Shown here: in pieces, positions 1-40,961 of the stretch | Layout of the letters: each line of letters opens with the position of its first letter | Position numbering within the stretch: position 1 is the stretch's first letter | Virus record (IMG/VR): IMGVR_UViG_3300025896_000054 | Location: 1 to 40,961 of that record | Direction: 5' to 3' (one strand) | DNA from: a virus | DNA length: 40,961 bases | Translations under genes and position numbers: made by a program | Notes under the pieces: generated by a model | Seen by the model: only the letters and a program-made list of their open reading frames with translations | The model's database searches: none | Told to the model about the DNA's origin: nothing

Positions 1-1
1 A

Positions 2-208
2 ACCCCATTCAACTTCTACGGCTTCACGGTCATTGCCGAGGCAACGATTGCAACGATTGTTGCGCCGACTGCCGGAAGTCCTGACGGGACCGCCTACGAC
101 GGCGACGAGGCAGGGATTGCCGGGGATGCGCTGCCGACTGGCTACTATCCCGTCCGTGGATCTTCCATCACACTCACCTCCGGTAAAGTCATCCTTTGGA
201 AAGAGTGA
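2..208 (+). CDS. Small virion-type hypothetical protein, 5' end outside window
   Basis: This is the C-terminal 68 codons of a protein whose complete homologue lies at 40200-40460 (86 aa). The visible part has the residues TPFNFYGF near its start and ends GKVILWKE. Gly, Thr and Ser are frequent and hydrophobic residues alternate, which suggests a small all-beta protein. It lies between the ejection-protein gene of the upstream copy and a holin-like gene, so a minor virion or tail-tip role is possible. I do not recognise the family. The differences from the right-hand copy are largely silent, so the gene is under selection. Confidence 0.7.
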   Translation, partial: TPFNFYGFTVIAEATIATIVAPTAGSPDGTAYDGDEAGIAGDALPTGYYPVRGSSITLTSGKVILWKE

Positions 209-211
209 ACT

Positions 212-505
212 ATGACGCTGGAAACCGCTGCCATCGCTGCGTTGAGTGCCGTCACTGGCGCTCTGTGCTTCATGTTCAAACTACTCTGGAAGCGCTCGCA
301 GGATTGCGAGGAATGGAGAAACGAGAAAGAGCCGCTCATCAACCAAATGGCGCAAGAACTCGGCATTCATTCCGGCATCACGCGCATGGTCAATACCTGC
401 CACGTCAAGGGATGCCCATATGCGGGCACCCTGACGGGCACCCTGACAGCGGAAACTTTTTCGATTCAGTCAGCCGCACACAACAAGGACCACCACCACC
501 AATGA
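212..505 (+). CDS. Holin-like small membrane protein
   Basis: A 97-residue protein with one hydrophobic segment at residues 5-24 (AAIAALSAVTGALCFMFKLL), followed directly by basic residues and then a charged helical region around residues 33-50. The C-terminus ends in HHH. One N-terminal membrane span with a charged cytoplasmic tail fits small phage holins or antiholins. It starts 3 bases after the preceding stop and overlaps the next gene by 4 bases (ATGA), so the two lysis candidates are translated together. Holin function is inferred from size, topology and neighbours, not from a recognised family signature. A close copy lies at 40464-40760. Confidence 0.6.
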   Translation: MTLETAAIAALSAVTGALCFMFKLLWKRSQDCEEWRNEKEPLINQMAQELGIHSGITRMVNTCHVKGCPYAGTLTGTLTAETFSIQSAAHNKDHHHQ

Positions 506-903
506 AAAGCATGCTCATCCCTCTCATCGCCAGCCGCAACGGTTGGGCATTCCGCCAAGTCCTGAAAGCCATCACGGTCGCTTGTGCGTCCGTGACTGCT
601 TGGCTCACGTCGAGCGGAGTCGATGCCAGTACGTCAACGGCTATTGTTGCGGGCATCGGCGCGGCTCTTTCGTGGGGCGCTGAGCTTGGCCTGTCGAAAC
701 TCGCGTCAAGAATCGCGGTCCCGTGTCTGGCGCTTCTCTTGTGCTCATGCAGCACGACACCAAGCGGAGAGAAAACATTCATCGGCATCACTTCGGCGGG
801 TTGGTTGAACGTCGGTAAAACTGCTGCCGTCGCTGCCGTTCCTGTCGCACTGGACGAGCGCGAAAAGACAGCCGCAAAGAATCCCGTCGCGGTCAACCCA
901 TGA
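502..903 (+). CDS. Putative holin with C-terminal lipoprotein-like tail
   Basis: A 133-residue protein. The first ATG at 502 is chosen because it overlaps the preceding stop and follows the same leader as the right-hand copy. Residues 16-36 and 44-62 are hydrophobic and holin-like. Residues 71-83 (IAVPCLALLLCSC) then look like a lipoprotein signal with a lipobox cysteine at 81 or 83, followed by a polar tail (STTPSGEKTF) typical of small phage lipoproteins. No internal ATG, GTG or TTG sits well for a separate lipoprotein. It is therefore either a holin-lipoprotein fusion or an overlapping lysis pair with a hidden start. An outer-spanin-like role is a guess. Confidence 0.55.
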   Translation: MKSMLIPLIASRNGWAFRQVLKAITVACASVTAWLTSSGVDASTSTAIVAGIGAALSWGAELGLSKLASRIAVPCLALLLCSCSTTPSGEKTFIGITSAGWLNVGKTAAVAAVPVALDEREKTAAKNPVAVNP

Positions 904-4085: not shown

Positions 4086-4229
4086 ATGAAAAAATACGTT
4101 GGAACATACCTAACCGAGGAGGCGCATAAATCGCTGCGCATCCATGCAGCCAAGGAGGGCGAAAGCGTGTCTTCGCTTTTGAAGCGTCTCGTCCTTAACT
4201 TCCTCGCCAGAAAGGAGAAAGCGAAATGA
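4086..4229 (+). CDS. Ribbon-helix-helix DNA-binding regulator
   Basis: A 47-residue protein with the Arc/CopG layout: an N-terminal strand (KKYVGTYLTEEAHKSL), a helix (RIHAAKEGES) and a second helix (SSLLKRLVLNFLARKE). The pattern 'Y-x-x-L-x-x-x-x-H-x-x-L-x-x-x-A...G-x-S-x-S-x-L-x-x-x-L' is typical of ribbon-helix-helix repressors that dimerise and insert a beta ribbon into the major groove. It is the first gene after the divergent region and overlaps the next gene by 4 bases (ATGA). That suits an early autoregulator controlling one or both flanking operons. Confidence 0.7.
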   Translation: MKKYVGTYLTEEAHKSLRIHAAKEGESVSSLLKRLVLNFLARKEKAK

Positions 4230-4684
4230 ACCTCGATGACGATTACTTCGAGCCTGCGCCACTGAAGCCCATGTGCGAAGACTGCGGCGAAGTGCCGGTA
4301 GATACGCGCGGCGACTCCTGCCAAGGCTGCATTGAACTGCACCGCGAACTCGAAGCGGATGACGTTTGGCCCGTCTATCTGGCCTCGCTCAAATACGGCG
4401 CGAAGGAAATCGACGCCTTTGACGACAAGCTCGCAGGCTGGAAATACATTGGCGCGACTATCGCCCATGAACGCACAAGCAAATGCGTCGCCATCGCCAG
4501 CGCGAACGATCTTATGTTTATCGCTCCTGGGCATCGCGGGCATTTGGTTTTCAGCCACAATGAGGGCGTGCCGTCGATCACGATTCTTGCCGGTGAAAAG
4601 CAATATCCTGAATGGGTCGCATGCTTCACGGCCCACACGCCCCACGAGGTCATTCTCGCCGCCTGCAACGCAGTTATTCACTAA
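4226..4684 (+). CDS. Zinc-ribbon hypothetical protein
   Basis: A 152-residue protein with an N-terminal zinc ribbon, CEDCGEVPVDTRGDSCQGC at residues 17-35 (two CxxC pairs). The rest is a mixed alpha/beta domain (for example DLMFIAPGHRGHLVF near 95-109) with no motif I recognise. It is coupled to the ribbon-helix-helix gene. It is probably a small DNA/RNA-binding or protein-binding early factor. Confidence 0.65.
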   Translation: MNLDDDYFEPAPLKPMCEDCGEVPVDTRGDSCQGCIELHRELEADDVWPVYLASLKYGAKEIDAFDDKLAGWKYIGATIAHERTSKCVAIASANDLMFIAPGHRGHLVFSHNEGVPSITILAGEKQYPEWVACFTAHTPHEVILAACNAVIH

Positions 4685-6207: not shown

Positions 6208-7010
6208 AAACAAGCATCGAACAAATCTCCCCAGAATTGGCAGTTCAATACCTGCTGAGCAATACGAACAACCGCCCTCTGCGTAAAACCCATGTGGCTT
6301 GGTTGGCGGATCAAATGAAAAACCAGCAATGGAAGCTCACGCATCAAGGTATTTGCTTCACTCAAGACGGCGCATTGAGCGACGGTCAGCACCGACTTGA
6401 GGCGATTATAGCCAGCGGAATGACCGTCCCTATGATGGTCACGCGTGGGGCTGAAACTGGCAATTTTGAAGCCTATGACTTGGGAATCGGGAGGACGGCG
6501 GCAGACATCACGCAAATGCCCAAGAAGAAGGTGGAAATACTGAACACTCTTGCGCTCGTTGATAAAAACCTATTCATGGCGGGGCGTTTTATTCCGGCTG
6601 ACATTGTGCGATTCAATGGCTTCTTTGGAGTGTTGATTGACCGGCTTTTCAAATATGCCGGAACCTCAAAAAAAGGCACTAGCAAGGCCACCGTTCGCTC
6701 TGCCGCAGTGCTTTGCATGGCCGAAGGCAATGAGTACGCTCTGGAGCAGTATAGGTGCCTGACACTATTGGACTTTTCAGGCATGAGTAGCGCTGTCCAG
6801 TCGCTGGCCCGGCAACTCCTTGGCACCCCAAGCAAGGGGAGCAACTTGCAGCGCGAACAGGAATTTGTTCGCGCCCTGCATGCCTTCAACCCAGATAACA
6901 AAGCCATTACCCGGCTCCAAATTAGCGACCCAACCGCTCACCTAAAAAGCGCACAGCAGCGCATTCATGCAATTGTCACCCTCGCAGCACGAAAGGAGAC
7001 CGAAGCATGA
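6204..7010 (+). CDS. ParB-like domain protein
   Basis: A 268-residue protein. The start at 6204 is supported by an AGGAGG-type site about ten bases upstream and a 4-base overlap with recT. The motif GALSDGQHRLEAIIASG near residues 53-69 is the ParB/Sulfiredoxin signature (DGxHR) that in ParB binds or hydrolyses a nucleotide. An upstream helical stretch (LRKTHVAWLADQMKNQQW) also fits this fold. The C-terminal 170 residues are helical with no recognised motif. Phage ParB-like proteins include nucleases, modification factors and anti-defence proteins. Its place between RecT and the exonuclease suggests a role on DNA. Confidence 0.75.
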   Translation: MKTSIEQISPELAVQYLLSNTNNRPLRKTHVAWLADQMKNQQWKLTHQGICFTQDGALSDGQHRLEAIIASGMTVPMMVTRGAETGNFEAYDLGIGRTAADITQMPKKKVEILNTLALVDKNLFMAGRFIPADIVRFNGFFGVLIDRLFKYAGTSKKGTSKATVRSAAVLCMAEGNEYALEQYRCLTLLDFSGMSSAVQSLARQLLGTPSKGSNLQREQEFVRALHAFNPDNKAITRLQISDPTAHLKSAQQRIHAIVTLAARKETEA

Positions 7011-7657
7011 AAATCCACAAAGGCTTTCTCCAAGGCTCCGAACAATGGTTTGAACTTCGGCGCGGTCGCGTGACGGCTTCAAACTTCGACAGGATCATGA
7101 CGGCGGTTCAATGCAAGTATTCAGCGCAGGCTGAAGGCTATCAGCGCGACTTGTTAGTCGAGAGTTTTTGCCCCGATTATGCCAAGTTCCTCGGCAACAA
7201 ATGGACAGAGCGCGGAACCGAGATGGAACCCGAGGCCCGCGCGGCATTCGAGGTCCACACGGGACTTGCAACTGAGCAGGTGGCATTCGTCACAACAGAG
7301 CGCTGGCAGCATGTCGTCGGCTGCTCTCCTGATTCACTCATCCCGGCTGGCGGATCATCCTATGCGTCCGGCCTTGAAATCAAATGCCCGTCTCCATTCA
7401 CTCATGCGGAGTACATCGAGAAAGGAATGCTGCCTGACGCCTACAAGATGCAGTGCCACGGCGGCATGATTGTCACGGGCTTGGATACTTGGCATTTCTT
7501 CTCCTATTTCCCTGGCCTTCAGCCATTCCACATCATTGTCAGGCGCGACGACTTCACCGCGAAACTGACAGACGCTCTCGACCGCTTCGTGATCGAATAC
7601 GGGGCCTATCGCGAGAAGATGACGCCGAAACTTCAACTCCAACCAACCGCGCAATGA
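7007..7657 (+). CDS. YqaJ-type phage recombination exonuclease
   Basis: A 216-residue protein of the lambda-exonuclease-like PD-(D/E)XK family. Visible motifs are GSEQWFELRRGRVTAS at residues 10-25, GTEMEPEARAAFE at 70-82, GCSPDSL with catalytic-type D109, and GLEIKCPSP with E124-x-K126. The enzyme resects double-strand ends 5' to 3' to load the RecT annealing protein. It overlaps the ParB-like gene and the following Lar-like gene by 4 bases each. Length and motif spacing are normal for the family. Confidence 0.9.
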   Translation: MKIHKGFLQGSEQWFELRRGRVTASNFDRIMTAVQCKYSAQAEGYQRDLLVESFCPDYAKFLGNKWTERGTEMEPEARAAFEVHTGLATEQVAFVTTERWQHVVGCSPDSLIPAGGSSYASGLEIKCPSPFTHAEYIEKGMLPDAYKMQCHGGMIVTGLDTWHFFSYFPGLQPFHIIVRRDDFTAKLTDALDRFVIEYGAYREKMTPKLQLQPTAQ

Positions 7658-13423: not shown

Positions 13424-13777
13424 ATGAAAACGCTCAATCACAGACTCAAAAAGCACGACATCGGCCTCATTGATTCACAATCTGGCAAAGTGTTGAAGAC
13501 ACAGAAAGCCGTCGATGTGTCCGATGAACTCACCCTAGACGCGGACTCGGAACCGCTGTGGCTCTACTACACTACGGCAGAGCGCGGTGAGATCGTGCAA
13601 CTGCGGCAAGGCTGCGCATCAGTCCACTACTTCACGGAATGGATGCACCGCGACGTGGATAGCGCACTCTCTCACTGGGCAGCGTGGACGAACTCCAGCA
13701 AAGAGAGGCTGATTGAGTTGTGTCTCAAATACTCCCCGACTCACGCCAAGAAGGAGAACCACCTAGCTCTGCCATGA
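13424..13777 (+). CDS. Hypothetical protein (117 aa)
   Basis: It begins MKTLNHRLKKHDIGLIDSQS and has a strand-rich first half (EPLWLYYTTAERGEIVQLRQ) and a helical end. It overlaps the PP-loop gene by 4 bases (ATGA) and may be a partner of that enzyme. No family is recognised. Confidence 0.6.
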   Translation: MKTLNHRLKKHDIGLIDSQSGKVLKTQKAVDVSDELTLDADSEPLWLYYTTAERGEIVQLRQGCASVHYFTEWMHRDVDSALSHWAAWTNSSKERLIELCLKYSPTHAKKENHLALP

Positions 13778-14649
13778 ATGCCGCGCTCTTAACTCTCGCT
13801 CCGCCCTCGACTACCTCGCGGCAGTCATTGGCAGCAGCGTCTTGTTGGCCCTTGGTGGTGTCGTTTGGTGGTGGCACAAACAGCGCCGCAATGCTCATCG
13901 AAATGGCGCGGCGAAAGGTCCGCCCTGATCTGATTATGTTCGCGGACACGGGCGGCGAACTGCCGGAAACCCTCCGCTTCGTCGCTGACTTTTCGGAATG
14001 GCTGCAAGCTCACGCCATGCCTCCAGTCGTCACAGTGCGCGAGGAACGCCAAACGCTAGAGCAAGAGGTGCTAGCCGCTAACACGCTGCCGTCTCTGGCT
14101 TTTGGTTTTCGCTCGTGTTCGGACAAATACAAGGTCAGGCCTCAAGAGCGATACCTGAAACGATGGCAACCCGCGCTAGATGCCTGGGCGACTGGCGGCA
14201 AAGTGGTGAAGCTCATCGGCTACGACGCCGGAGAATCGCACCGAGTAAAAAACCACGATGACAAGCGCTTCATGGTAGCCTATCCGCTCGTAGAGTGGGG
14301 CTGGCGTCGTCGTGAATGCGTGGCGACTGTGGAAGCCACTGGATTCCGGCCCGCTAAGTCTGCCTGCTGGTTCTGTCCAGCATCCAAACGCGGCGAAGTG
14401 CTGTCACTCGCCAAAACGCACCCGGATCTGTTCGCCCGCGCTGTAGAGATGGAACGCAACGCCACCACGGCAACGACGGCGATTGGCCTGGGGCGCAACT
14501 GGCGCTGGTCCGACCTTGTGAAAGCCGATGCACAGCAAATGAAGCTGTTCGATGATCTTCCCGATCCGGTGCCATGCGGCTGCTATGACGGCAGCGCGTC
14601 CGATGATTGGGCCAACGCCACGCTCTCCCATGAGGAGGGCGAGAAATAA
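13774..14649 (+). CDS. PP-loop ATP pyrophosphatase, PAPS-reductase-like
   Basis: A 291-residue protein with the PP-loop VVSFGGGTNSAAML at residues 28-41, a variant of SGGxDS. Further on are CSDKYKVRPQERYL (C115), GYDAGESHR at 149-157 and CWFCPASKRGE with C198 and C201. The family adenylates a substrate and is used for sulfur transfer or reduction; phage and DndC-like members act on nucleic acids or other small substrates. The single CxxC plus C115 could bind a metal or cluster. A sulfate-assimilation role is unlikely for a phage. Confidence 0.75.
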   Translation: MNAALLTLAPPSTTSRQSLAAASCWPLVVSFGGGTNSAAMLIEMARRKVRPDLIMFADTGGELPETLRFVADFSEWLQAHAMPPVVTVREERQTLEQEVLAANTLPSLAFGFRSCSDKYKVRPQERYLKRWQPALDAWATGGKVVKLIGYDAGESHRVKNHDDKRFMVAYPLVEWGWRRRECVATVEATGFRPAKSACWFCPASKRGEVLSLAKTHPDLFARAVEMERNATTATTAIGLGRNWRWSDLVKADAQQMKLFDDLPDPVPCGCYDGSASDDWANATLSHEEGEK

Positions 14650-24208: not shown

Positions 24209-24464
24209 GGTCGTGTTTGTGGTTATCTGTCGTTCATCATCTCAGGCAAACCCCTCCCTCCTCCCCACGACAAGCGGAGAGAATGAGGGGAACCCAGCCA
24301 GGCCTTGTTTATCCTCGCGCCAGCACGGTATTTGACCGCTCCCTGCGAGTAGTTCAAGAGTTGACGCGATGAACAGCACTGGCTTTCTCACGGCCTGCAT
24401 TGTCGCGTTGCTGGCGTCTCCGCTTCGCTGTCCTGTTTGATTGACGTTGGACAAGTAACAACGC
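24209..24464. other. Non-coding stretch between cassette and terminator
   Basis: No convincing gene is seen on either strand. A promoter for the leftward cassette must lie here or nearby, but no clear pair of boxes stands out. On the plus strand a 23-codon frame at 24369-24440 encodes a hydrophobic peptide (MNSTGFLTACIVALLASPLR) ending 25 bases before a terminator hairpin. It could be a small membrane peptide, but the ribosome site is poor and chance is likely. Confidence 0.4.
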
Positions 24465-30564: not shown

Positions 30565-32310
30565 ATGGCCCTTGTTCCTCTCGCTCCCATCGCTCGCGCT
30601 CCAAACGTCTCAACGCAGCCGTTGGCGACCGTGCGCCTTCAGTCTGCCGGTCCTTCGCAAGGGATGCAGATGGCAGAGGCAATCGGGCAGGTGGGCGCGG
30701 TGGCCGCTAATCTCCAGTCCAAGTACGCCGAGTTGACGGATACGCGGAATCTCATCGAGGCCGAGGAGGTCATGCGCGCGAAAACGCAGGAGTTCGATAT
30801 GTGGCGCAGGGACCCGGTGAACGCCGACGAATCGCAATGGCTCCCAAAGTGGCAGGAGATGCAGAATGCGACGCAGAAACATATCGACGGCCTGAAGATC
30901 ACGGATCGAGCGCGGCTGAATTTGTCGCGCTCTTTCGGGCAATGGGCGGACAAGCAGACGATTTCCGTGCAAGGGGACGCCTTCAAGCAGGGAGTGAAGC
31001 GCACAGGTGCGGCGTTGGAGTTGCGAATCAATCAAGGCATCGAGTCGGGTGACGACGGCATTGTTGCTTCCTCCTATGACAGCGCGGCCAAGCTCGGCGT
31101 AATGCTGCCAGAAGAAGCAGAACTCGGGAAGTTTGGCGCTCTCAAGCGCGCAAAGGAAACGAGGCGCTCGAACACTTTTATGGAGATTGAGACACTCAAA
31201 AAGGATGCTGCGGCAACCTTTGAAGATGTGCGTCAAAAAGTGGTCGAGTCACCCGATCTGACCGACACGGAAAAGACCAGCATTCTTGTGGAGGCGGAAA
31301 ACCAATACGCCTTTCAGGATATGAAGAATCTCATCTACGCGAATCCAACGCACGGCCTGGAGGTTGCCAAGAATGATCTTGGTCGACGCGCTATCTCGCA
31401 AGCGCAATACAACGCCCTTGAAGTCGCCTCGCAGAATCGAATCGTTGAGTTACAGCGCGGTGAATATGCCGAGATTGTGGACAAGATGAAGGGCGGCAAG
31501 GTCAAGCCTGACGCTCTGCGGGGCATGATTCTCGATTCTGTGCGCCTGTCGGATGGACAAAAAGCAGAACTGGCGACGATCCTCGACGGCCCCACGAACG
31601 ACCCGCAAGTTTATTCGTCCCTCATGAAAGAGGCGGCAAACTTTGAGCATGACGCCGATTCTCCGCAGTACGCCATGTTTATCACCAGGATGCAGGCGAA
31701 TTTAGAGGGCACGCATTTGTCGGAAGCTCAGGCCGCCTTGAAAGAGCGAGTCGGCGCAACGGGCGATCCTTATGTACGGTCCAAGGGAGCAGTGTACTCG
31801 ACTGCTGACGATGATTTGAAAGCGGGAATGTTTGGTCCTTTGACTGGCAAGTTGTCCGATTTGAAAACGCAGTTGCCGCCGAAGATTCAAGCGCAGGTCG
31901 ACACCTTAAAGGATGCGCAAATAAAGGCCGAGGCTGAAGGACGAGCGAAACGACATCCAGACGAACCGCGACGCATCGACTTCATTGAGTCGAAAGCGCG
32001 CGAGGCTTGGTGGAACACGCAACCGGAAGAGTTGCGCGGCGCATCTTATGAGGCTTTCGAGATTGAAGATTTGGCAAAAAGCCGAGAGGCTGGCGCGCGG
32101 CAGACGGAAATCTTGCAATCGCTCGACAAGTTTAAGGCTGACAAGCCGAATGCTACGGCAATGGAGCTTCGGCAGTTCTACGATTCGCAGGTTGCCGACC
32201 TTCGCAAGAAGGCGAGTCTCCCGCCTGTAGCATCGGGCGGCTCATCCGCGATTGGAACGACGCTGCCAACCATTGACGCAATCCATTCCCGCCATGCCCC
32301 AAATCCTTGA
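30565..32310 (+). CDS. Internal/ejection protein (581 aa), gp15-like position
   Basis: From the ATG at 30565 the product begins MALVPLAPIARAPNVSTQPL. It is almost entirely helical and charged (LQSKYAELTDTRNLIEAEEV, later LDILKR-like repeats are absent). It lacks membrane spans and enzymatic motifs. Gene order (gp14-like, this gene, giant protein) matches the T7 gp14-gp15-gp16 ejection set, so it probably lines the trans-envelope channel. The upstream in-frame extension runs through the terminator repeats and is rejected. Its 3' end overlaps the giant gene by 17 bases. Confidence 0.65.
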   Translation: MALVPLAPIARAPNVSTQPLATVRLQSAGPSQGMQMAEAIGQVGAVAANLQSKYAELTDTRNLIEAEEVMRAKTQEFDMWRRDPVNADESQWLPKWQEMQNATQKHIDGLKITDRARLNLSRSFGQWADKQTISVQGDAFKQGVKRTGAALELRINQGIESGDDGIVASSYDSAAKLGVMLPEEAELGKFGALKRAKETRRSNTFMEIETLKKDAAATFEDVRQKVVESPDLTDTEKTSILVEAENQYAFQDMKNLIYANPTHGLEVAKNDLGRRAISQAQYNALEVASQNRIVELQRGEYAEIVDKMKGGKVKPDALRGMILDSVRLSDGQKAELATILDGPTNDPQVYSSLMKEAANFEHDADSPQYAMFITRMQANLEGTHLSEAQAALKERVGATGDPYVRSKGAVYSTADDDLKAGMFGPLTGKLSDLKTQLPPKIQAQVDTLKDAQIKAEAEGRAKRHPDEPRRIDFIESKAREAWWNTQPEELRGASYEAFEIEDLAKSREAGARQTEILQSLDKFKADKPNATAMELRQFYDSQVADLRKKASLPPVASGGSSAIGTTLPTIDAIHSRHAPNP

Positions 32311-35300
32311 AAGTGAAGCCATTGCTCTAGCTCAAAACATCGACTCTCTGGACGATGCGCGGAAGGCAAAATCACTCGACATCCTGAAGCGCTACCAACA
32401 GCAGCAGCGGGATCTTGGAGAACCGGAATGGCCCACGCAGGCCAAACAGCAAGCGGAGGCGGAAACCCGTTTTCGTTCGATGTTTGATTCTCCCGAGAAG
32501 GTGCCTTACGACCCCGGCCCGTACGCGAAAGATCCAAACGCTGAACGCGTCAGTTACGCAAACGCGGCATTCATTGCCAATAGATACAACGTCGAGTTCG
32601 GTGAAGCTGTGGACCGGAGGCGCTTCTATATGGATGATTACGCCGCGAAGAAGGGGCAAAAGTCTGGTCTCGATGAGATGGCATTTTACAACCTAGCCAA
32701 AGGGGAAGTGGCAGAAACCAAACTCGCGGAAGATACGCGTCTCGAAGGCGCAAAGGCTGCGCTGCGTGGAGAGGATGTTATCGGCTCGCTTCAGGCGTGG
32801 CAGGGCAAGAATCTCGATCGACTGGCAGGCTCTACCGATTTCACCAAGGGCTATCTGAAGGCCAAAGATCAAGCAGGCGATTACCTGCCGATGGCCGACG
32901 AGTTGCTGAAACTCATGGAAAGCCAGACAGGACAGAGCAACAGCGCGCGGACGTTTGACACAAAGGCCGCGTCTCGGCTCGATGAACTGGCGGTTGAACT
33001 CGCGGGAATGAAGCCGCGCGAACGCAAGCAGGTCTATGCTTCGATTGCCGCGCGCTCTGAGATGGCCGGATATGAGCAGAAGGGATTCTGGTCTCAGATG
33101 CTCGGCGAACTCGACAAGGGGCTTTTACGCATGAGTTCCACCGTTGGAACTACGGCCGGAAATGCGGCGGATGTGATGAGGAACTTTCCGGCCATGCTGG
33201 CGGAAGGGGCCACGGGAAACCGCGATTTCGGCATGAAGCCGGGCGAGGTTGCCAACACTGACGAAACTATCGCGCAACGCCAAGCACTCGGCGAAATTCA
33301 CGACGAGCTTGCTTCCATCGTCTCGGGCACGGTCGATCCCGTGCGGCCAACAATCGGCTGGCTGAATGACACGGTCGAAACCGGACTCATCAAAGGCCCT
33401 GGCGCTGTCATGCCATTCATGGCGGCGACAGCGGCGCTCGGACCGTGGGGCGGCGGCATGCTGTTCACGGCTGACTTTGCCGAACAGAATCGGCGCGATC
33501 TGCGCGCGGCCGGCATGGATAATGACCGAGCGATTCAAATCGGCACCGTCGCGGCTCCACTGCAAGCGGCTGTCGAGTCGCTGTCGAACATGCTCCAACT
33601 TGGCAAGTTCACCAAACTGCAAAGCGTGCTCGCGAATTTCACGAAACCGATTGGCGGCGGAGCAGGCTTGGCGCTTCGATACGCTCAAAATACTGGAATC
33701 TCGCTGGCGACCGAGTACACCGAGGAGCAACTTCAAGACAACTTCATCGTTCCGGCAGTTCAGGAAATCGTTGGCGCTCTTGCTGCCGACGTGCCGGAAG
33801 TCGATTGGAGTTTTTACAAGACGCGCGCGGCTGAATCGACGCCTGAATTGCTGTCTGTCTTGGCTCCTATGGCGCTCGTCTTTGGTGGCGTCATGACCGG
33901 CGCTCAAGCCAACCTCTCGCGCGAGATGACGAGCAATATCGACGCGCTGAAGGCGTTGAACTACTCGGAAGCGCAGGCAACCGAGATTGTTGCGGAAAAG
34001 ACCGAGGAAGGCAGAATTGCAAAAGCCTCGTCCATGTGGGGCGTGCGGGCTGGCGACAAGACGACTTTGGAAGAAGGCGCACGCAGTCTATCCGAGCGCA
34101 TGCGGCAGCTTTCCGGCGATGTCGTGGCGCAACAGCAGGAGCTTGAACGGCGCGGCATCCTTCCGCGCATGCTTCGCGCAACCGAGGATCAATGGCGGCT
34201 GACGTTTCAAGATGGGTCAACGGCTGCATACAACTCGCACGCGGAAGCAGACGCGGCACGCTGGACTTGGACCGAGGATCAACTCGGCAAGGTCCACGCG
34301 CTCACCCGTGAAACGCTTTCGAGCATGGAGCGCAACCTTGACGTGAAACGCGAAATCGGCGTCGAGTTTTCGCCGGATGCCCGCACGGCGCAAGATGCCG
34401 TCAACGACGGGGTAAGCGTTGAGCAGATGTCGAGGCGCGTGAAGCAAGGCGCGGCTCTTGGCGACGTTGCGCCTGACACAGCTTTTGATGACGCTCAGGC
34501 CATCGACAAGGCAACGGCTGACTCGGAGGGCTTTCTGTCGTCGCTGCGGATTCTCGGCAGTTCGCGCAATGAGTTCAAAGACGGTGTTTTGCGCACGACC
34601 ATCCGGCTTTGGGAAGGCTCGAACGTGCTGACGCTCGTAGAAGAGAAGCTCGAAGGCGATGCCAAGGCAATCATTTCCGAGCGACGCGGGCGGGACTGGA
34701 TGCTTTCGCGGCTGCGGTCCTACGAGGAGACGAGCGGCGACAAACTCTTTCGCGACGTGCCAGACGAGCAGCTCAAAGACGACGACATAATCGAGGCGTG
34801 GTCACACCTGGGGCAGAGCTACCTTGTCGGGCGCTCGACGTTTGGCGAGCCATTGCAGGCAAAGACCATGAGGCGGTTTGGTCGTCTCTTGATGCGCGCC
34901 GGGTTCACGGGCGCTATGAACTCGGAAGCGTCCTTTTTCGCCGCCGTCGCCAGTCGCGCGAAGAAGCTCGGAGAGTTGCAAAAGGCAGGTAAACTCGGCG
35001 CTGACCTGACGGCTGAACTCGAAAAGCAACTCGGCATTGACTCGCAGGTTGCGCACGATGCAGGCGCGGAGGCAGAAGCGCGCCAACTCATCGACACTTC
35101 CGGCTATTCGGAAGAGACGCCGGGGCCTAATGGTGAGACATTTTCCATATCGTCCAAAGAACTGCGCGTTAAAATCGAGGTGTCACCCGACTCAACAACC
35201 CTTGGCAATCTTGGAATTACCGAGGGGTTTCACGCCAATCATGGAGGCGAGGTTGTGCCAGATTTCGCGCCACGCGCATCTAAGCAGGGCCGTAAGGGGC

Positions 35301-38300
35301 AATACGCTGGTTTTTATCTCGGTCCGGCCATTAATGAAGTGAGCCAATACGGCCAGAATGTCTCCACGTTTCCGCTCAATCCAAATACGCCAGTTAAGGT
35401 TCTTCGCCGTCCTGGGCAGGTTGAGCGCATCACGCCGGAAATGGCGGCGGCATGGCGGGCCGAGGGGTTTAGCGTCGTGGTCGGTCCAGCGATCATTCCT
35501 AGCAAGATCGAGATTGCCACGCTTAGTGCTAACGTGTTGAATACGCCGGGGCCGAATGGCGAGACGTTTTCCACTTCCCGCGCAACTCCCGCAGACGCCT
35601 CGAACGTGGTTCAAATGCCGGACGGCGCTCGACTCGTTGGGCCTACGACGTTCTCAATCCGGGCTTTTCATGGGACTCCACACAAAGTGGATCGCTTCAG
35701 CCTCGACAAGATAGGCACGGGCGAGGGGGCGCAGGCTTACGGACACGGTTTGTATTTCGCTGAATCAAGGGGCGTTGCCAAAAGCTACCAAGATAGCCTC
35801 TCTGGCGCTTTGAGCGGGCAACCTATGATTGCGGGGGTTGTGCCAGCCTCGACCGATAAAACACTCGCGGATAGAACTTGGATGTCGGTTAAAGAGCTTT
35901 CCGAGACGCTTGTATCCGATCCCTTGAACGTAAAGAGATTTAGCCAACTCGACATCGAAAGTAGGAGTGACGTGCTCGCGGTGATGAGCCGACTTTTGCA
36001 AGATGGCGAGATTCGACAGTCTGTTATCAGACTTGTTCCCGTTGATGTGGTGAACATGCTCACTGGTCTGCAACTTCCTGCCGATAGCACCCTCCATGAT
36101 GGCTCTGTGCTCGTAAACTTGCCTTCCATCTACCCTCGTAATCCGGTACCCAGCTTTGTTCAAGCCGTGGACATACTGGCTCCGTTGGTGGCACTCTCTG
36201 GAGCAAAAAGACTTACCGGACTTGGTAGGTTTGATGTTACTCCTAAAGAAGCCCTTACCGCATTCAGAACAGGTGATGTTGCTCATATTGCTGGCAAAAT
36301 ACCCCTCCCGTCAGAGTTTGCAAGAACAAAGACAACCGGCAACCTCTACACCGTCGAACTCCTGCCGGATGAATCCGAGTTTTTGGACTGGGACAAGCCG
36401 CTGAGTGAGCAGAGCGAGAAGGTGAAGGCGGCGTTTTCGCAACTCCACAAAAGCAATAAATCAGCCTTCGACTACTACGACAAAACGCAGTCGAACAAAT
36501 TCGCTGACGGTTCCATTTATGGATCTGCTCTTTATGCTCGCCTCTCTATGCGAGACATGCCAGCGGGTAACGATGCGCAAGCGTCGAGCCTCTTGGTTTC
36601 AATGGGGGTGAAGGGCATCCGCTACCTCGACGGCGGCAGTCGCCAGCGCCGGTTCTACACTGAAAGGGTCAATGGCAAAATCCGGGTAGCAGATGATAAA
36701 AGCGGCAAATACACTGGCCCGGTTTTTGAAAACATGGACGAGGCTATCGCCTTCCGTGACGAACTAAACAGCAAGGAACCCAAGCAAACCTACAACTACG
36801 TCATCTTTGACGAGAATCTCATTCGCATCCTCGAAGAGAACGGCAAGCCTGTTGGCGAGACGTTCAGCCTCCGCTCCGGCGACTTCGCCTCACGCGCGGC
36901 GGCAATGTTCTCGCCGTTCCAGCGGTCTCCCGAGGCTCGCATGGCGATTGCCCGCGTCGCGAAAGAGCGCGCGATGAGACTCGGCGCGGAGTGGATCGAG
37001 AAGGCGGCAGTGATTCGCTCGGCATCAAGCATCAACCGCGAGGTGGCGTTTCGTGAGGCTGACGGCTTCGACCGGCGCATGACGGCATACCTCGACAGCC
37101 TGACGCCAAACGCGCGGCAGAACCTGGAATTTGAACCGGCTTCACTCGAAGACGACCCGTTGATTTCTGCCATGCTCGACTTTGGCAAGTTGATGTCTCG
37201 TTCTACCGCCATCAAGAACGGCGTGCAAAACATGGATGAGTTCGAGGGTGCTCCGTGGCTTCCTCCTGCGTGGTATTCCAAGGGTTCCGGCATCACTCCC
37301 GGCAAGATGGCAAAAGCCATGCACGAAGGCGCGGACGGAAACGGCGGACCTCTGGCGGCTGGCGACAGTGCCGCCGATTTGTGGGATGCTGTAGCCTCTC
37401 GCATTGAATCTAGCCGCAAGGACAAAGCGGCTTATCGTGAAGCCGTGCAGGCCTTCCGTGACGCCAAGAAAACGGCACGCACGGAAGCAAAGACCGAAGC
37501 GGAAGCGTGGGGCGAGCGCACGAAGAAAACGGCGGGCAGTCCAAAGGCTCAACGCGACATGCTCAAGGCTGCTCTGCGCACGCTCGATGGCATCTTGTCG
37601 GCGGCTCCTCCCGAGGTCCGCGCGCGAGTCGGCGGCTACGTCAAACTTGCCGGGCTGGCGACGGATGAGGCGATGCTTCAGGAAATCGAGCGGCGCGTTG
37701 CAAAGCTGAACGTCGAGCTTGAGAAGTGGCTCAAGAAGGAAGCGCGCGCGCAACTGGTAAAGGTGTTCAAAAAAGCCGCCCCGAAAACTGAATCAGGCGA
37801 GAAGGCGAAGGGCAAATTGACACCCGAGTTGCACGCATGGTTTTCGATGGCTGAAGACGCATCGGAGCTTTCGCCTGCCGTTGCAGACGAGCGAATTGAA
37901 GGAATCGAAAACACTCTTTCCGGCGAAATGACGAAGGCCATTAAAGAGGACTTGTCGAAATGGCTCGGCAGGGAAATCACCGACGACGCAGAAGCGCGAG
38001 ACTGGCAAGAGCAACGCCTGACCATTTTGCAAACTTTCGGCTCCGTTCTGCACGGCACAGACGCAAAGGCGGCGCGGGGATCGGCGGAAGTTACGGCGGC
38101 GCTCGATCTTGCTCGCGAGGCCTATTCGCAGGGAAGGCTTGCGCACATCGAAGAAACCGCGAAGAAGCGCGAACGTCGGGCGGCTGAGCGGCTGGACGGG
38201 ATTACCCGTGTCGGGTCTCCGTATGACGCGAGTAAGGCAAACGCTCGGCGTCGTGAACTCAACAAGATTGCCGGACTCAAGGGGCGCGCTGCGGACTACC

Positions 38301-40156
38301 TAGACACCGGACTCGACGCCAGCGGCTTCTTTCTCGACCTGCTCGGCAAAGGCGATCTTTACGAGAACGTACGTCGTGGTGTGCTTGGCGCTGATATGGC
38401 GAAGGACGACGGCATGAGAAAGCGTAAAGCGGAGTTTGCCGAGATGCTGCAAGGGGCGTTTCCTGGCAAGGGTCTTACCGCTCGCCTGCGTGGATTGTGG
38501 GAACTTCAACAGATCCAAGAGTCTGCGGCTGGCACGATGTCGCAGCTTCAAATGATGCAGTTAACGCTTTGGTGGATGGACGAGGATTCCCGCGACTGGC
38601 TCGACTCTCACGGCTACGGGCAGGATTGGCAAGGCATCGCCGAAGGACTGCTCACCACGGAAGCGCGGGCCGTTCGGTCGTGGCTCATGAAGCAGTACGC
38701 AGAACAGTATGCGCGAATCAATCCAGTCTTCCGCAGGTTGCGCGGCGTTAATCTGCCTCGCGTCGAGGTATATGGAGGCATGCGACAGGTCGAGCATTCA
38801 AAATCCGACTCATCCGTTGCTCTCGAAGAGGATATGATGCGTGGCGGCATGCAGTCCGGCTTTACAAAAACCCGTGTTTCGCGCCCATCTGGCCCGCCAA
38901 AGATGACGGACGCGCTTCAAAACTACTGGCAGAACGCGCACCAAGTAGAGCACTACATCGCATTTGCGGAGGTCTCGACTGAGTTGCGCGCCATCTTCGG
39001 GCATCGAGACTTTAGGTTGGCCGTTGAGACGAATCGCGGGCAAGACAAGGCTCGGCAGGTTTCCGACTATATCGAGAACATTGAGCAGGCTGGTACGCGG
39101 GATTCATTCGCTCACTCGGCGCAAGGTCGCCTATTTGGTCGCTACGGTCGGGCCGTTGCTGCAACCGCCCTTTTGTTCAAGCTGTCCGTCATTGCCAAGC
39201 AGGCGCCGGCCGCGATCCAGTCAGCCTTCAAAGTAGGACTCAAGGAGTACTTTGTGTCACTCGGTCGCATCATGTCTGGCAACGGGGCAATCAGCCTCGG
39301 GGAAATGTATCGCAGCGACACGGTGCAACGCCGACTTTCGGAGCATGACGCAGAAATGAATCAGGCCGCGAAAGGCTGGAACCAGCGCCATTTTGAAAAC
39401 GAGATTCTCGACAAGGCGGCAACGACTCCAGATTTGATGATGAATGCCGGATGGTATGCAATTGGCTGGACAGATGCACGATTCACGACCATTTCCGCAG
39501 CAGTGGCTTATGACGTGGCCTTCCGAGACGCTAAAGGCATGGGAATGAATGACGAGGACGCCAAGACCTACGCGGCAGACGAAAGCGCCTTGATCGTCAT
39601 GGAGACGGCGCAACCGCAAACGGCTGCAACCAAATCTCTATTCGAGAATCAGACCCCTATGGCGCTCCTGCGGTTCCTGTTCGCGTTCCAAAGCGCCAAC
39701 CGGCAGGTGTTTGGCCTGACGTGGCTCGCTTTGAAAAAGGGTGGCGTCGCGAATGCATGGGGCACGGCGGCGATCATTGCCGGGATGGCGCAGACCATCG
39801 GCGGATTGCTTCGCATGATGACGACCGACGACGAGCCGGAAGAGTTGTTTCGGCCTGAAGTCTATGCGCTCGCGATGGCAACGGCCCCCATGACTGGCAT
39901 GATGGGCCTTGGCGTTATCGTTGAGGCGATCAATGCAGGCGTTGGCGTCGAGAGCCGCATTGCCGCTTCTCCTGCGGCTATGGCCGCTTCTGCTATCAAG
40001 CAGATGGCCGAAGGCGAGGCTGACGTAAAGGATGTTGAACGCGTGATGACAATTCTTGGCCTGGCTATTGGCGGGCGGGGCGCTGCTGTTGGAGCAACCT
40101 GGAACGTGCTGAATCAGATCATGGGTCTCTACGAAAACGCCACGACATCCGACTAA
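32294..40156 (+). CDS. Giant ejection/polyvalent protein with ART-like modules
   Basis: A 2,620-residue protein from the ATG at 32294. Residues 1-940 are helical with hydrophobic stretches near 370-420. A divergent ART-like module lies near 975-1080 (EGFHANHGGEVVPDF, then GFYLGPAINEVSQYG). A clearer one spans 1124-1515: FHGTPHKVDRF, GEGAQAYGHGLYFAE, GNLYTVELLPDESEFLDWD, GVKGIRYLDGG and YNYVIFDENLIRILEENGK. Residues about 1178-1333 are antisense of an HNH gene. GETFS recurs at 942-951, 1084-1093 and 1517-1526. The rest is helical, with membrane-active-type segments near the end. The role is probably DNA ejection plus delivery of effector domains. Confidence 0.8.
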   Translation: MPQILESEAIALAQNIDSLDDARKAKSLDILKRYQQQQRDLGEPEWPTQAKQQAEAETRFRSMFDSPEKVPYDPGPYAKDPNAERVSYANAAFIANRYNVEFGEAVDRRRFYMDDYAAKKGQKSGLDEMAFYNLAKGEVAETKLAEDTRLEGAKAALRGEDVIGSLQAWQGKNLDRLAGSTDFTKGYLKAKDQAGDYLPMADELLKLMESQTGQSNSARTFDTKAASRLDELAVELAGMKPRERKQVYASIAARSEMAGYEQKGFWSQMLGELDKGLLRMSSTVGTTAGNAADVMRNFPAMLAEGATGNRDFGMKPGEVANTDETIAQRQALGEIHDELASIVSGTVDPVRPTIGWLNDTVETGLIKGPGAVMPFMAATAALGPWGGGMLFTADFAEQNRRDLRAAGMDNDRAIQIGTVAAPLQAAVESLSNMLQLGKFTKLQSVLANFTKPIGGGAGLALRYAQNTGISLATEYTEEQLQDNFIVPAVQEIVGALAADVPEVDWSFYKTRAAESTPELLSVLAPMALVFGGVMTGAQANLSREMTSNIDALKALNYSEAQATEIVAEKTEEGRIAKASSMWGVRAGDKTTLEEGARSLSERMRQLSGDVVAQQQELERRGILPRMLRATEDQWRLTFQDGSTAAYNSHAEADAARWTWTEDQLGKVHALTRETLSSMERNLDVKREIGVEFSPDARTAQDAVNDGVSVEQMSRRVKQGAALGDVAPDTAFDDAQAIDKATADSEGFLSSLRILGSSRNEFKDGVLRTTIRLWEGSNVLTLVEEKLEGDAKAIISERRGRDWMLSRLRSYEETSGDKLFRDVPDEQLKDDDIIEAWSHLGQSYLVGRSTFGEPLQAKTMRRFGRLLMRAGFTGAMNSEASFFAAVASRAKKLGELQKAGKLGADLTAELEKQLGIDSQVAHDAGAEAEARQLIDTSGYSEETPGPNGETFSISSKELRVKIEVSPDSTTLGNLGITEGFHANHGGEVVPDFAPRASKQGRKGQYAGFYLGPAINEVSQYGQNVSTFPLNPNTPVKVLRRPGQVERITPEMAAAWRAEGFSVVVGPAIIPSKIEIATLSANVLNTPGPNGETFSTSRATPADASNVVQMPDGARLVGPTTFSIRAFHGTPHKVDRFSLDKIGTGEGAQAYGHGLYFAESRGVAKSYQDSLSGALSGQPMIAGVVPASTDKTLADRTWMSVKELSETLVSDPLNVKRFSQLDIESRSDVLAVMSRLLQDGEIRQSVIRLVPVDVVNMLTGLQLPADSTLHDGSVLVNLPSIYPRNPVPSFVQAVDILAPLVALSGAKRLTGLGRFDVTPKEALTAFRTGDVAHIAGKIPLPSEFARTKTTGNLYTVELLPDESEFLDWDKPLSEQSEKVKAAFSQLHKSNKSAFDYYDKTQSNKFADGSIYGSALYARLSMRDMPAGNDAQASSLLVSMGVKGIRYLDGGSRQRRFYTERVNGKIRVADDKSGKYTGPVFENMDEAIAFRDELNSKEPKQTYNYVIFDENLIRILEENGKPVGETFSLRSGDFASRAAAMFSPFQRSPEARMAIARVAKERAMRLGAEWIEKAAVIRSASSINREVAFREADGFDRRMTAYLDSLTPNARQNLEFEPASLEDDPLISAMLDFGKLMSRSTAIKNGVQNMDEFEGAPWLPPAWYSKGSGITPGKMAKAMHEGADGNGGPLAAGDSAADLWDAVASRIESSRKDKAAYREAVQAFRDAKKTARTEAKTEAEAWGERTKKTAGSPKAQRDMLKAALRTLDGILSAAPPEVRARVGGYVKLAGLATDEAMLQEIERRVAKLNVELEKWLKKEARAQLVKVFKKAAPKTESGEKAKGKLTPELHAWFSMAEDASELSPAVADERIEGIENTLSGEMTKAIKEDLSKWLGREITDDAEARDWQEQRLTILQTFGSVLHGTDAKAARGSAEVTAALDLAREAYSQGRLAHIEETAKKRERRAAERLDGITRVGSPYDASKANARRRELNKIAGLKGRAADYLDTGLDASGFFLDLLGKGDLYENVRRGVLGADMAKDDGMRKRKAEFAEMLQGAFPGKGLTARLRGLWELQQIQESAAGTMSQLQMMQLTLWWMDEDSRDWLDSHGYGQDWQGIAEGLLTTEARAVRSWLMKQYAEQYARINPVFRRLRGVNLPRVEVYGGMRQVEHSKSDSSVALEEDMMRGGMQSGFTKTRVSRPSGPPKMTDALQNYWQNAHQVEHYIAFAEVSTELRAIFGHRDFRLAVETNRGQDKARQVSDYIENIEQAGTRDSFAHSAQGRLFGRYGRAVAATALLFKLSVIAKQAPAAIQSAFKVGLKEYFVSLGRIMSGNGAISLGEMYRSDTVQRRLSEHDAEMNQAAKGWNQRHFENEILDKAATTPDLMMNAGWYAIGWTDARFTTISAAVAYDVAFRDAKGMGMNDEDAKTYAADESALIVMETAQPQTAATKSLFENQTPMALLRFLFAFQSANRQVFGLTWLALKKGGVANAWGTAAIIAGMAQTIGGLLRMMTTDDEPEELFRPEVYALAMATAPMTGMMGLGVIVEAINAGVGVESRIAASPAAMAASAIKQMAEGEADVKDVERVMTILGLAIGGRGAAVGATWNVLNQIMGLYENATTSD
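35765..36286 (-). CDS. HNH endonuclease inside the giant gene, opposite strand
   Basis: A complete 173-residue protein. The N-terminal zinc site has C6, C9, C28 and C32 (TCSECGKGFF, then FCSRECHQRS). The HNH core has RQVYEHRAIMEG, then SEHVHHINGNKSDNRLSNLA with H79-H80, N88 and N92, and AHHREH. The C-terminal HTH is SLYVQGIGYKRLGKLFNRHP. This is the layout of free-standing homing endonucleases that nick phage genomes near their own site. It lies entirely within the coding frame of the giant protein, antisense and in codon register. Its last 20 residues probably read into older host-gene sequence. No strong ribosome site precedes its ATG. Confidence 0.85.
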   Translation of the reverse strand: MSNITCSECGKGFFRSNIKPTKSGKSFCSRECHQRSQYVHGLNKAGYRITRVDGRQVYEHRAIMEGAIGRKLQTSEHVHHINGNKSDNRLSNLAILQKSAHHREHVTPTFDVELAKSLYVQGIGYKRLGKLFNRHPSSIRECFIGRGWHNPRNHRLPAQSAREAILVAFGNAP

Positions 40157-40199: not shown

Positions 40200-40460
40200 A
40201 TGAACCGAGAACAGGCTTCCAAAGGCTACAAGGCCGTCACGACGACCGACGCAACCCCATTCAACTTCTTTGGCTTCACGGTCATTTCCGAGGCGACGAT
40301 TGCAACGCTTGTTGCGCCGACTGCTGGAAGTCCTGACGGGACAGCCTACGACGGCGACGAGGCCGGAATTGCCGGGGATGCGCTGCCGACCGGCTACTAT
40401 CCCGTTCGTGGATCTTCGATCACTCTCACCTCCGGCAAAGTCATCCTTTGGAAAGAGTGA
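40200..40460 (+). CDS. Small virion-type hypothetical protein (86 aa)
   Basis: The complete homologue of the partial gene at the left edge. It begins MNREQASKGYKAVTTTDATP and ends SSITLTSGKVILWKE, and is probably an all-beta small protein. It starts 43 bases after the giant gene, with a G-poor leader (ctaatccctccaaattcacc). Its place between ejection and lysis genes suggests a minor virion part. The family is not recognised. Confidence 0.7.
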   Translation: MNREQASKGYKAVTTTDATPFNFFGFTVISEATIATLVAPTAGSPDGTAYDGDEAGIAGDALPTGYYPVRGSSITLTSGKVILWKE

Positions 40461-40463
40461 ACT

Positions 40464-40760
40464 ATGACGCTGGAAACCGCCGCCATCGCTGCGTTGAGTG
40501 CCGTCACTGGCGCTTTGTGCTTCATGTTCAAACTACTCTGGAAGCGTTCGCAGGATTGCGAGGAATGGCGAGACGAGAAAGAGCCGCTCATCAACCAAAT
40601 GGCGCAAGAGCTTGGCATTCATTCCGGCATCACGCGCATGGTCAATACCTGCCACGTCAAGGGATGCCCATATGCGGGCACCCTGACGGGCACCCTGACG
40701 GCGGAAACTTTTTCGATTCAGAAATCAACCGCACACAACAAGGACCACCACCACCCATGA
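40464..40760 (+). CDS. Holin-like small membrane protein, second copy
   Basis: A 98-residue homologue of the gene at 212-505, with the same membrane segment at residues 5-24 and the same DHHH end. It differs by an extra residue near position 86 (IQKSTAHN versus IQSAAHN) and an Arg-for-Asn-type change in the charged region (EEWRDEKE versus EEWRNEKE). It overlaps the next gene by 4 bases. The holin role is inferred from topology and context. Confidence 0.6.
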   Translation: MTLETAAIAALSAVTGALCFMFKLLWKRSQDCEEWRDEKEPLINQMAQELGIHSGITRMVNTCHVKGCPYAGTLTGTLTAETFSIQKSTAHNKDHHHP

Positions 40761-40961
40761 AAAGCATGCTCCTCCCTCTCATCGCCAGCCGCAACGGTTG
40801 GGCATTCCGTCAAGTTCTGAAAGCCATCACGGTTGCTTGTGCGTCCGTGACTGCTTGGCTCACGTCGAGCGGAGTCGATGCCAGTACGTCAACGGCTATT
40901 GTTGCGGGCATCGGCGCGGCTCTTTCGTGGGGCGCTGAGCTTGGCCTGTCGAAACTCGCGT
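40757..40961 (+). CDS. Holin/lipoprotein gene, second copy, cut by window end
   Basis: The first 68 codons of the homologue of the gene at 502-903, beginning MKSMLLPLIASRNGWAFRQV. Both holin-like hydrophobic segments are present. The lipobox part lies beyond the window. At the protein level only one residue in the visible part differs from the left copy (Leu for Ile at position 6). Confidence 0.6.
   Translation, partial: MKSMLLPLIASRNGWAFRQVLKAITVACASVTAWLTSSGVDASTSTAIVAGIGAALSWGAELGLSKLA

Follow-up and report, generated by a model that had tools for sequence, protein, structure and literature searches.

Here we analysed a window of 40,961 nt that is an entire IMG/VR virus record, and we conclude with high confidence that it represents one circularly mapping phage of ~40,255 nt, which a short-read de Bruijn assembler wrote out as a lasso with a strain-variant tail in front. 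The near-duplicate ends of the record almost certainly reflect a commonplace artefact of assembly rather than a true duplication of the genome. On the best reading of the data, the phage is podovirus-like with one circular map of ~40.26 kb, and the sample contained at least two strains that lie ~5% apart over the 579 nt before their sequences merge. Four lines of evidence support the lasso: an exact 127-nt recurrence, a graph reconstruction of the window, the circular map of related phages, and the single copy of the repeated block in these relatives. The parts of the window under this reading are as follows.

1-579, no strand: probable lasso tail, variant A (40253-40834 as it would occur in a second strain), which joins the circle at 580; it carries 28 substitutions and a 3-nt indel and forms a 706-nt unitig with the 127-mer
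580-706, no strand: shared 127-mer, first occurrence, where the tail enters the circle; longest repeated suffix, with two in-edges and one out-edge
580-40834, no strand: one full turn of the genome on a circular map, 40,255 nt by computed circle length; in relatives the gene order is unbroken over the join
40253-40834, no strand: variant B of the tail region, belonging to the assembled circle, as delimited by BLASTN and script comparison
40835-40961, no strand: shared 127-mer, second occurrence, and contig end; identical to 580-706, equal in length to the largest k of JGI metaSPAdes assemblies and in keeping with the metaSPAdes end-overlap rule

Two diverged copies at the contig ends

A BLASTN comparison of the window with itself aligned positions 1-706 with positions 40253-40961 at 678 of 709 columns, with 3 gap columns (E value of 0.0), which is far above chance; the only other self-match was a 31-nt partial match (35117/35543). 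Since the window is the complete 40,961-nt contig, both copies lie at contig ends. The preliminary description had reported that the first 706 bases recur some 40,252 bases later with about 30 differences, mostly silent, and a script comparison of the two copies bears this out, with 28 substitutions and one 3-nt indel. The indel falls after base 469, where the second copy has the additional bases, and it keeps the reading frame. All differences are confined to positions 18 to 579, giving a divergence of 4.8% (28/579) across the variable part, and there are none in positions 580 to 706. Most of the differences are synonymous: in the three reading frames of the repeat, dN/dS by the NG86 method was 0.020/0.240, 0.013/0.116, and 0.007/0.058. 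This synonymous excess agrees with the earlier proposal that both copies evolved under selection, and the codon pattern indicates that they are two related variants under purifying selection.

Three genes lie in the repeated block.

40200-40460, + strand: 86-aa gene, from the open reading frame list and translations; single-copy homologues in relatives
40464-40760, + strand: 98-aa gene, with its other variant at 212-505, from the open reading frame list, translations, and relatives
502-903, + strand: 133-aa gene across the join, from the translation; seven relatives have one intact copy

The 86-aa gene is complete at the right end only; its left copy is cut by the contig start and is open from base 2 to a stop at 208. 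The other variant of the 133-aa gene starts near position 40757 and runs off the contig end. Both contig ends thus fall within phage genes.

The contig ends exactly 127 nt past the last difference

The longest contig suffix that is found elsewhere in the window is exactly 127 nt (40835-40961, identical to 580-706), and the run of identity is immediately preceded by a mismatch at position 579. Given the divergence measured in the variable part, the copies would close with exactly 127 identical nt by chance with a probability of about 9e-5. At the contig start, the longest repeated prefix is 17 nt; that end is without a k-mer signature. JGI metagenomes are assembled by metaSPAdes with the setting -k 33,55,77,99,127, the largest k being 127 (PMC7171226, PMC10434106), and contigs that metaSPAdes breaks at repeats have common end sequences of length maxK (PMC10914622). 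Judging from the 127-nt length, the present record was probably assembled with k = 127. Taken together, the 127-nt recurrence and a maxK of 127 place the contig end at the point where the two copies cease to be distinguishable at this k.

We therefore propose the following path. A 579-nt piece of a strain A (positions 1-579) would merge into the circle of a strain B at the 127-mer 580-706; the assembly path would then round the circle, cross the tail region as strain B carries it (40253-40834), and halt on meeting the same 127-mer again at 40835-40961. We combined the strain-variant tail with the circle 580-40834 (40,255 nt) in a de Bruijn graph with k = 127. This graph branched at a single vertex (580-706), which two edges entered and one left, and its one tip lay at base 1. 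Joining the two unitigs, of 706 and 40,382 nt, gave the window letter for letter. A lasso is thus sufficient to produce the window, while the original graph may have differed. It accounts for all features save the exact start of the tail at base 1, which is likely the edge of strain A's coverage. The tail itself, we infer, comes from a co-occurring strain. An exact IMG/VR search with a 48-mer from the shared part returned no other contig, so that the second strain was not found independently there.

Relatives have a circular map with the block in single copy

IMG/VR searches with the capsid gene and the block genes yielded 18 loci, and the synteny evidence comes from the seven loci found with the 133-aa gene. 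In eight relatives (G002, G004, G005, G006, G009, G010, G011, and G012), the detectable block genes are single-copy and internal to the contig, and they immediately follow a homologue of the giant gene at 32252-40156. In G009 and G010 the gene series goes on into homologues of 4226-4684 and 7007-7657, crossing the window's join. A circular map is directly apparent in two relatives. G011 (IMGVR_UViG_3300043391_000311) has an identical 127 nt at both ends, giving a circle of 37,584 nt. G007, which is 99.97 to 99.996% identical to G002 and hence of the same species, spans the two ends of G002 and places them 30 nt apart, giving a closed circle of ~38,045 nt. The block lies at 7.8 to 8.8 kb of 38 kb in G002 and at ~27 kb of 37.7 kb in G011, and the window's break point falls well within the contig in both. 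A circular map is thus seen in G011 and G002, and a single copy of the repeated block in all eight relatives. A search for relatives via the C-terminal part of the giant protein gave none that could be confirmed.

Two further sequences are sister- or same-species sequences of the window, with the block outside their coverage: another IMG/VR record (L003), 99.88% identical over 6 kb, and a contig assigned to a metagenome-assembled genome of a WHONDRS sample (L044), 89 to 97% identical over the longer matched pieces. They show that near-identical and moderately diverged strains exist, and a strain ~5% apart in the same sample is therefore unsurprising.

Two side observations were made on these loci. 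The phage group has two gene orders: the 86-aa gene precedes the 98-aa and 133-aa genes in the window, G004, G005, G009, and G010 and follows the 133-aa gene in G002, G006, G011, and G012. In G008 (IMGVR_UViG_3300027730_000053), the first 126 nt recur exactly 2,144 nt downstream (positions 1-154 versus 2145-2298, 98.7% over 154 nt), making it another contig that ends inside a repeat of about k length.

Gene content of the phage

The window encodes a portal protein (PF12236), a major capsid protein (PF19821), tail proteins, a DnaB-like helicase, RecT, YqaJ, a small terminase subunit, and a Holliday-junction-resolvase-like protein. The portal and tail proteins resemble those of podoviruses. For the major capsid protein, the best of the listed phage matches are HTVC010P-like Pelagibacter phages (~33 to 35% amino acid identity over 96 to 99% of the length), and for the portal, other phages such as BPP-1 come closest (~28 to 29%); in these capsid and portal comparisons, no close relative was seen among named phages. 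The record has no match to a tyrosine integrase (PF00589) or a serine recombinase/resolvase (PF00239). When 84,980 bacterial and archaeal genomes were searched with the capsid protein, there was a sole match, the 23.6-kb contig L044, whose stored stretch is phage-matching over most of its length with no host flank seen.

Several other features were noted. The giant gene (32252-40156) encodes 2,634 aa with a weak, sub-threshold match to the ADP-ribosyltransferase domain of polyvalent proteins (PF18760); in relatives, some of its stretches are 70 to 80% identical and others are absent or diverged. A phosphoadenosine phosphosulfate reductase-like gene at 13720-14649 (PF01507, phrog_424) belongs to a type of auxiliary metabolic gene known from phages. 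Upstream of the major capsid gene, the stretch at 24233-24430 is poor in open reading frames and is 93% identical in L013 and 97% identical in L044, whereas the neighbouring capsid gene of L013 is just ~75% identical. An Rfam search of the window gave no match, the predicted RNA folding of this stretch was not better than that of shuffles (z of -0.95), and an exact 30-mer from it occurs in two IMG/VR contigs only.

Alternative explanations

The preliminary description had read the contig as a genome-length duplication that joins two related genomes, either as tandem prophages, as a concatemer of co-infecting variants, or as an assembly chimera. Of these, the assembly chimera stands and the two joined molecules are unsupported. 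It is conceivable that one DNA molecule carried two variants head to tail (for a concatemer, a heteroconcatemer) and that the assembler halted where they became indistinguishable. The contig does contain two diverged versions separated by one genome length, co-infecting phages could in principle recombine given the RecT, YqaJ, and Holliday-junction-resolvase-like genes, and copies identical over 127 nt would merge in a k = 127 graph even on one molecule, so that the sequence by itself is indecisive. However, nothing of a second genome is visible in the contig. A second copy that stops at an assembly break had been named beforehand as evidence against a joined molecule, and this is what we found: the copy ends at the de Bruijn merge point, exactly one 127-mer past the last difference, and close relatives have a circular map with a single copy of the block. 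Tandem prophages in particular were rejected, as the record matches no integrase or resolvase and the sole capsid match among the cellular genomes is a phage-like contig with no host flank seen. We consider a joined molecule of either kind very improbable.

Some podoviruses carry direct terminal repeats, and with podovirus-like portal and tail proteins, the window could in principle be a linear genome that ends in long imperfect repeats, at least 706 nt in length, which have diverged from each other. To our knowledge, terminal repeats in known phages arise by copying or cutting one sequence and remain identical, whereas the copies here share a prefix of only 17 nt and have 28 differences in their first 579 nt. 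A natural terminal repeat was also rejected on the position of the block, which is internal and not terminal in the maps of G002 and G011, and the exact length of 127 would be a coincidence. This explanation thus seems no more probable than a joined molecule. Least probable of all is an exact terminal overlap in which one copy carries sequencing errors, so that the ends would be the usual overlap of a circular contig. Because errors ignore codons, the codon pattern refutes this: the synonymous bias is strong (dS of ~0.06 to 0.24 versus dN of 0.007 to 0.020) and the indel is in frame.

Relation to known assembly patterns and significance

The lasso resembles two known patterns. As in circular metaSPAdes contigs with a k-length end overlap, termed 'self_circular' by COBRA (PMC10914622), the ends of the window recur over k = 127, and the cause would be the same, namely a walk that comes back to a k-mer it has passed before; G011 shows this pattern in plain form. 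Unlike in such contigs, the recurring k-mer of the window lies 579 nt inside the contig with a strain-variant tail in front, and since the tail precedes the k-mer, an exact end-to-end match fails to recognise the contig as circular. As in contig breaks caused by within-population variation (PMC10914622), two strains would yield parallel paths that merge at a common k-mer, but in the window the two paths are placed in series and so resemble a duplication. Of known phages, the podovirus-like Pelagibacter phage HTVC010P and its relatives have a capsid protein that is alike over nearly its full length and yet has only about a third of its residues in common.

Taken at face value, the contig looks like a duplicated or chimeric genome, whereas under the lasso reading it represents a complete, circularly mapping genome of ~40,255 nt that would be filed as linear by a test for exactly matching ends. 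The importance of this is mainly one of curation. If 'linear' contigs were screened for a k-length suffix that reappears close to the opposite end, further complete genomes of this type would be uncovered, and the tail of the present lasso is a small, direct sample of the strain variation within one population.
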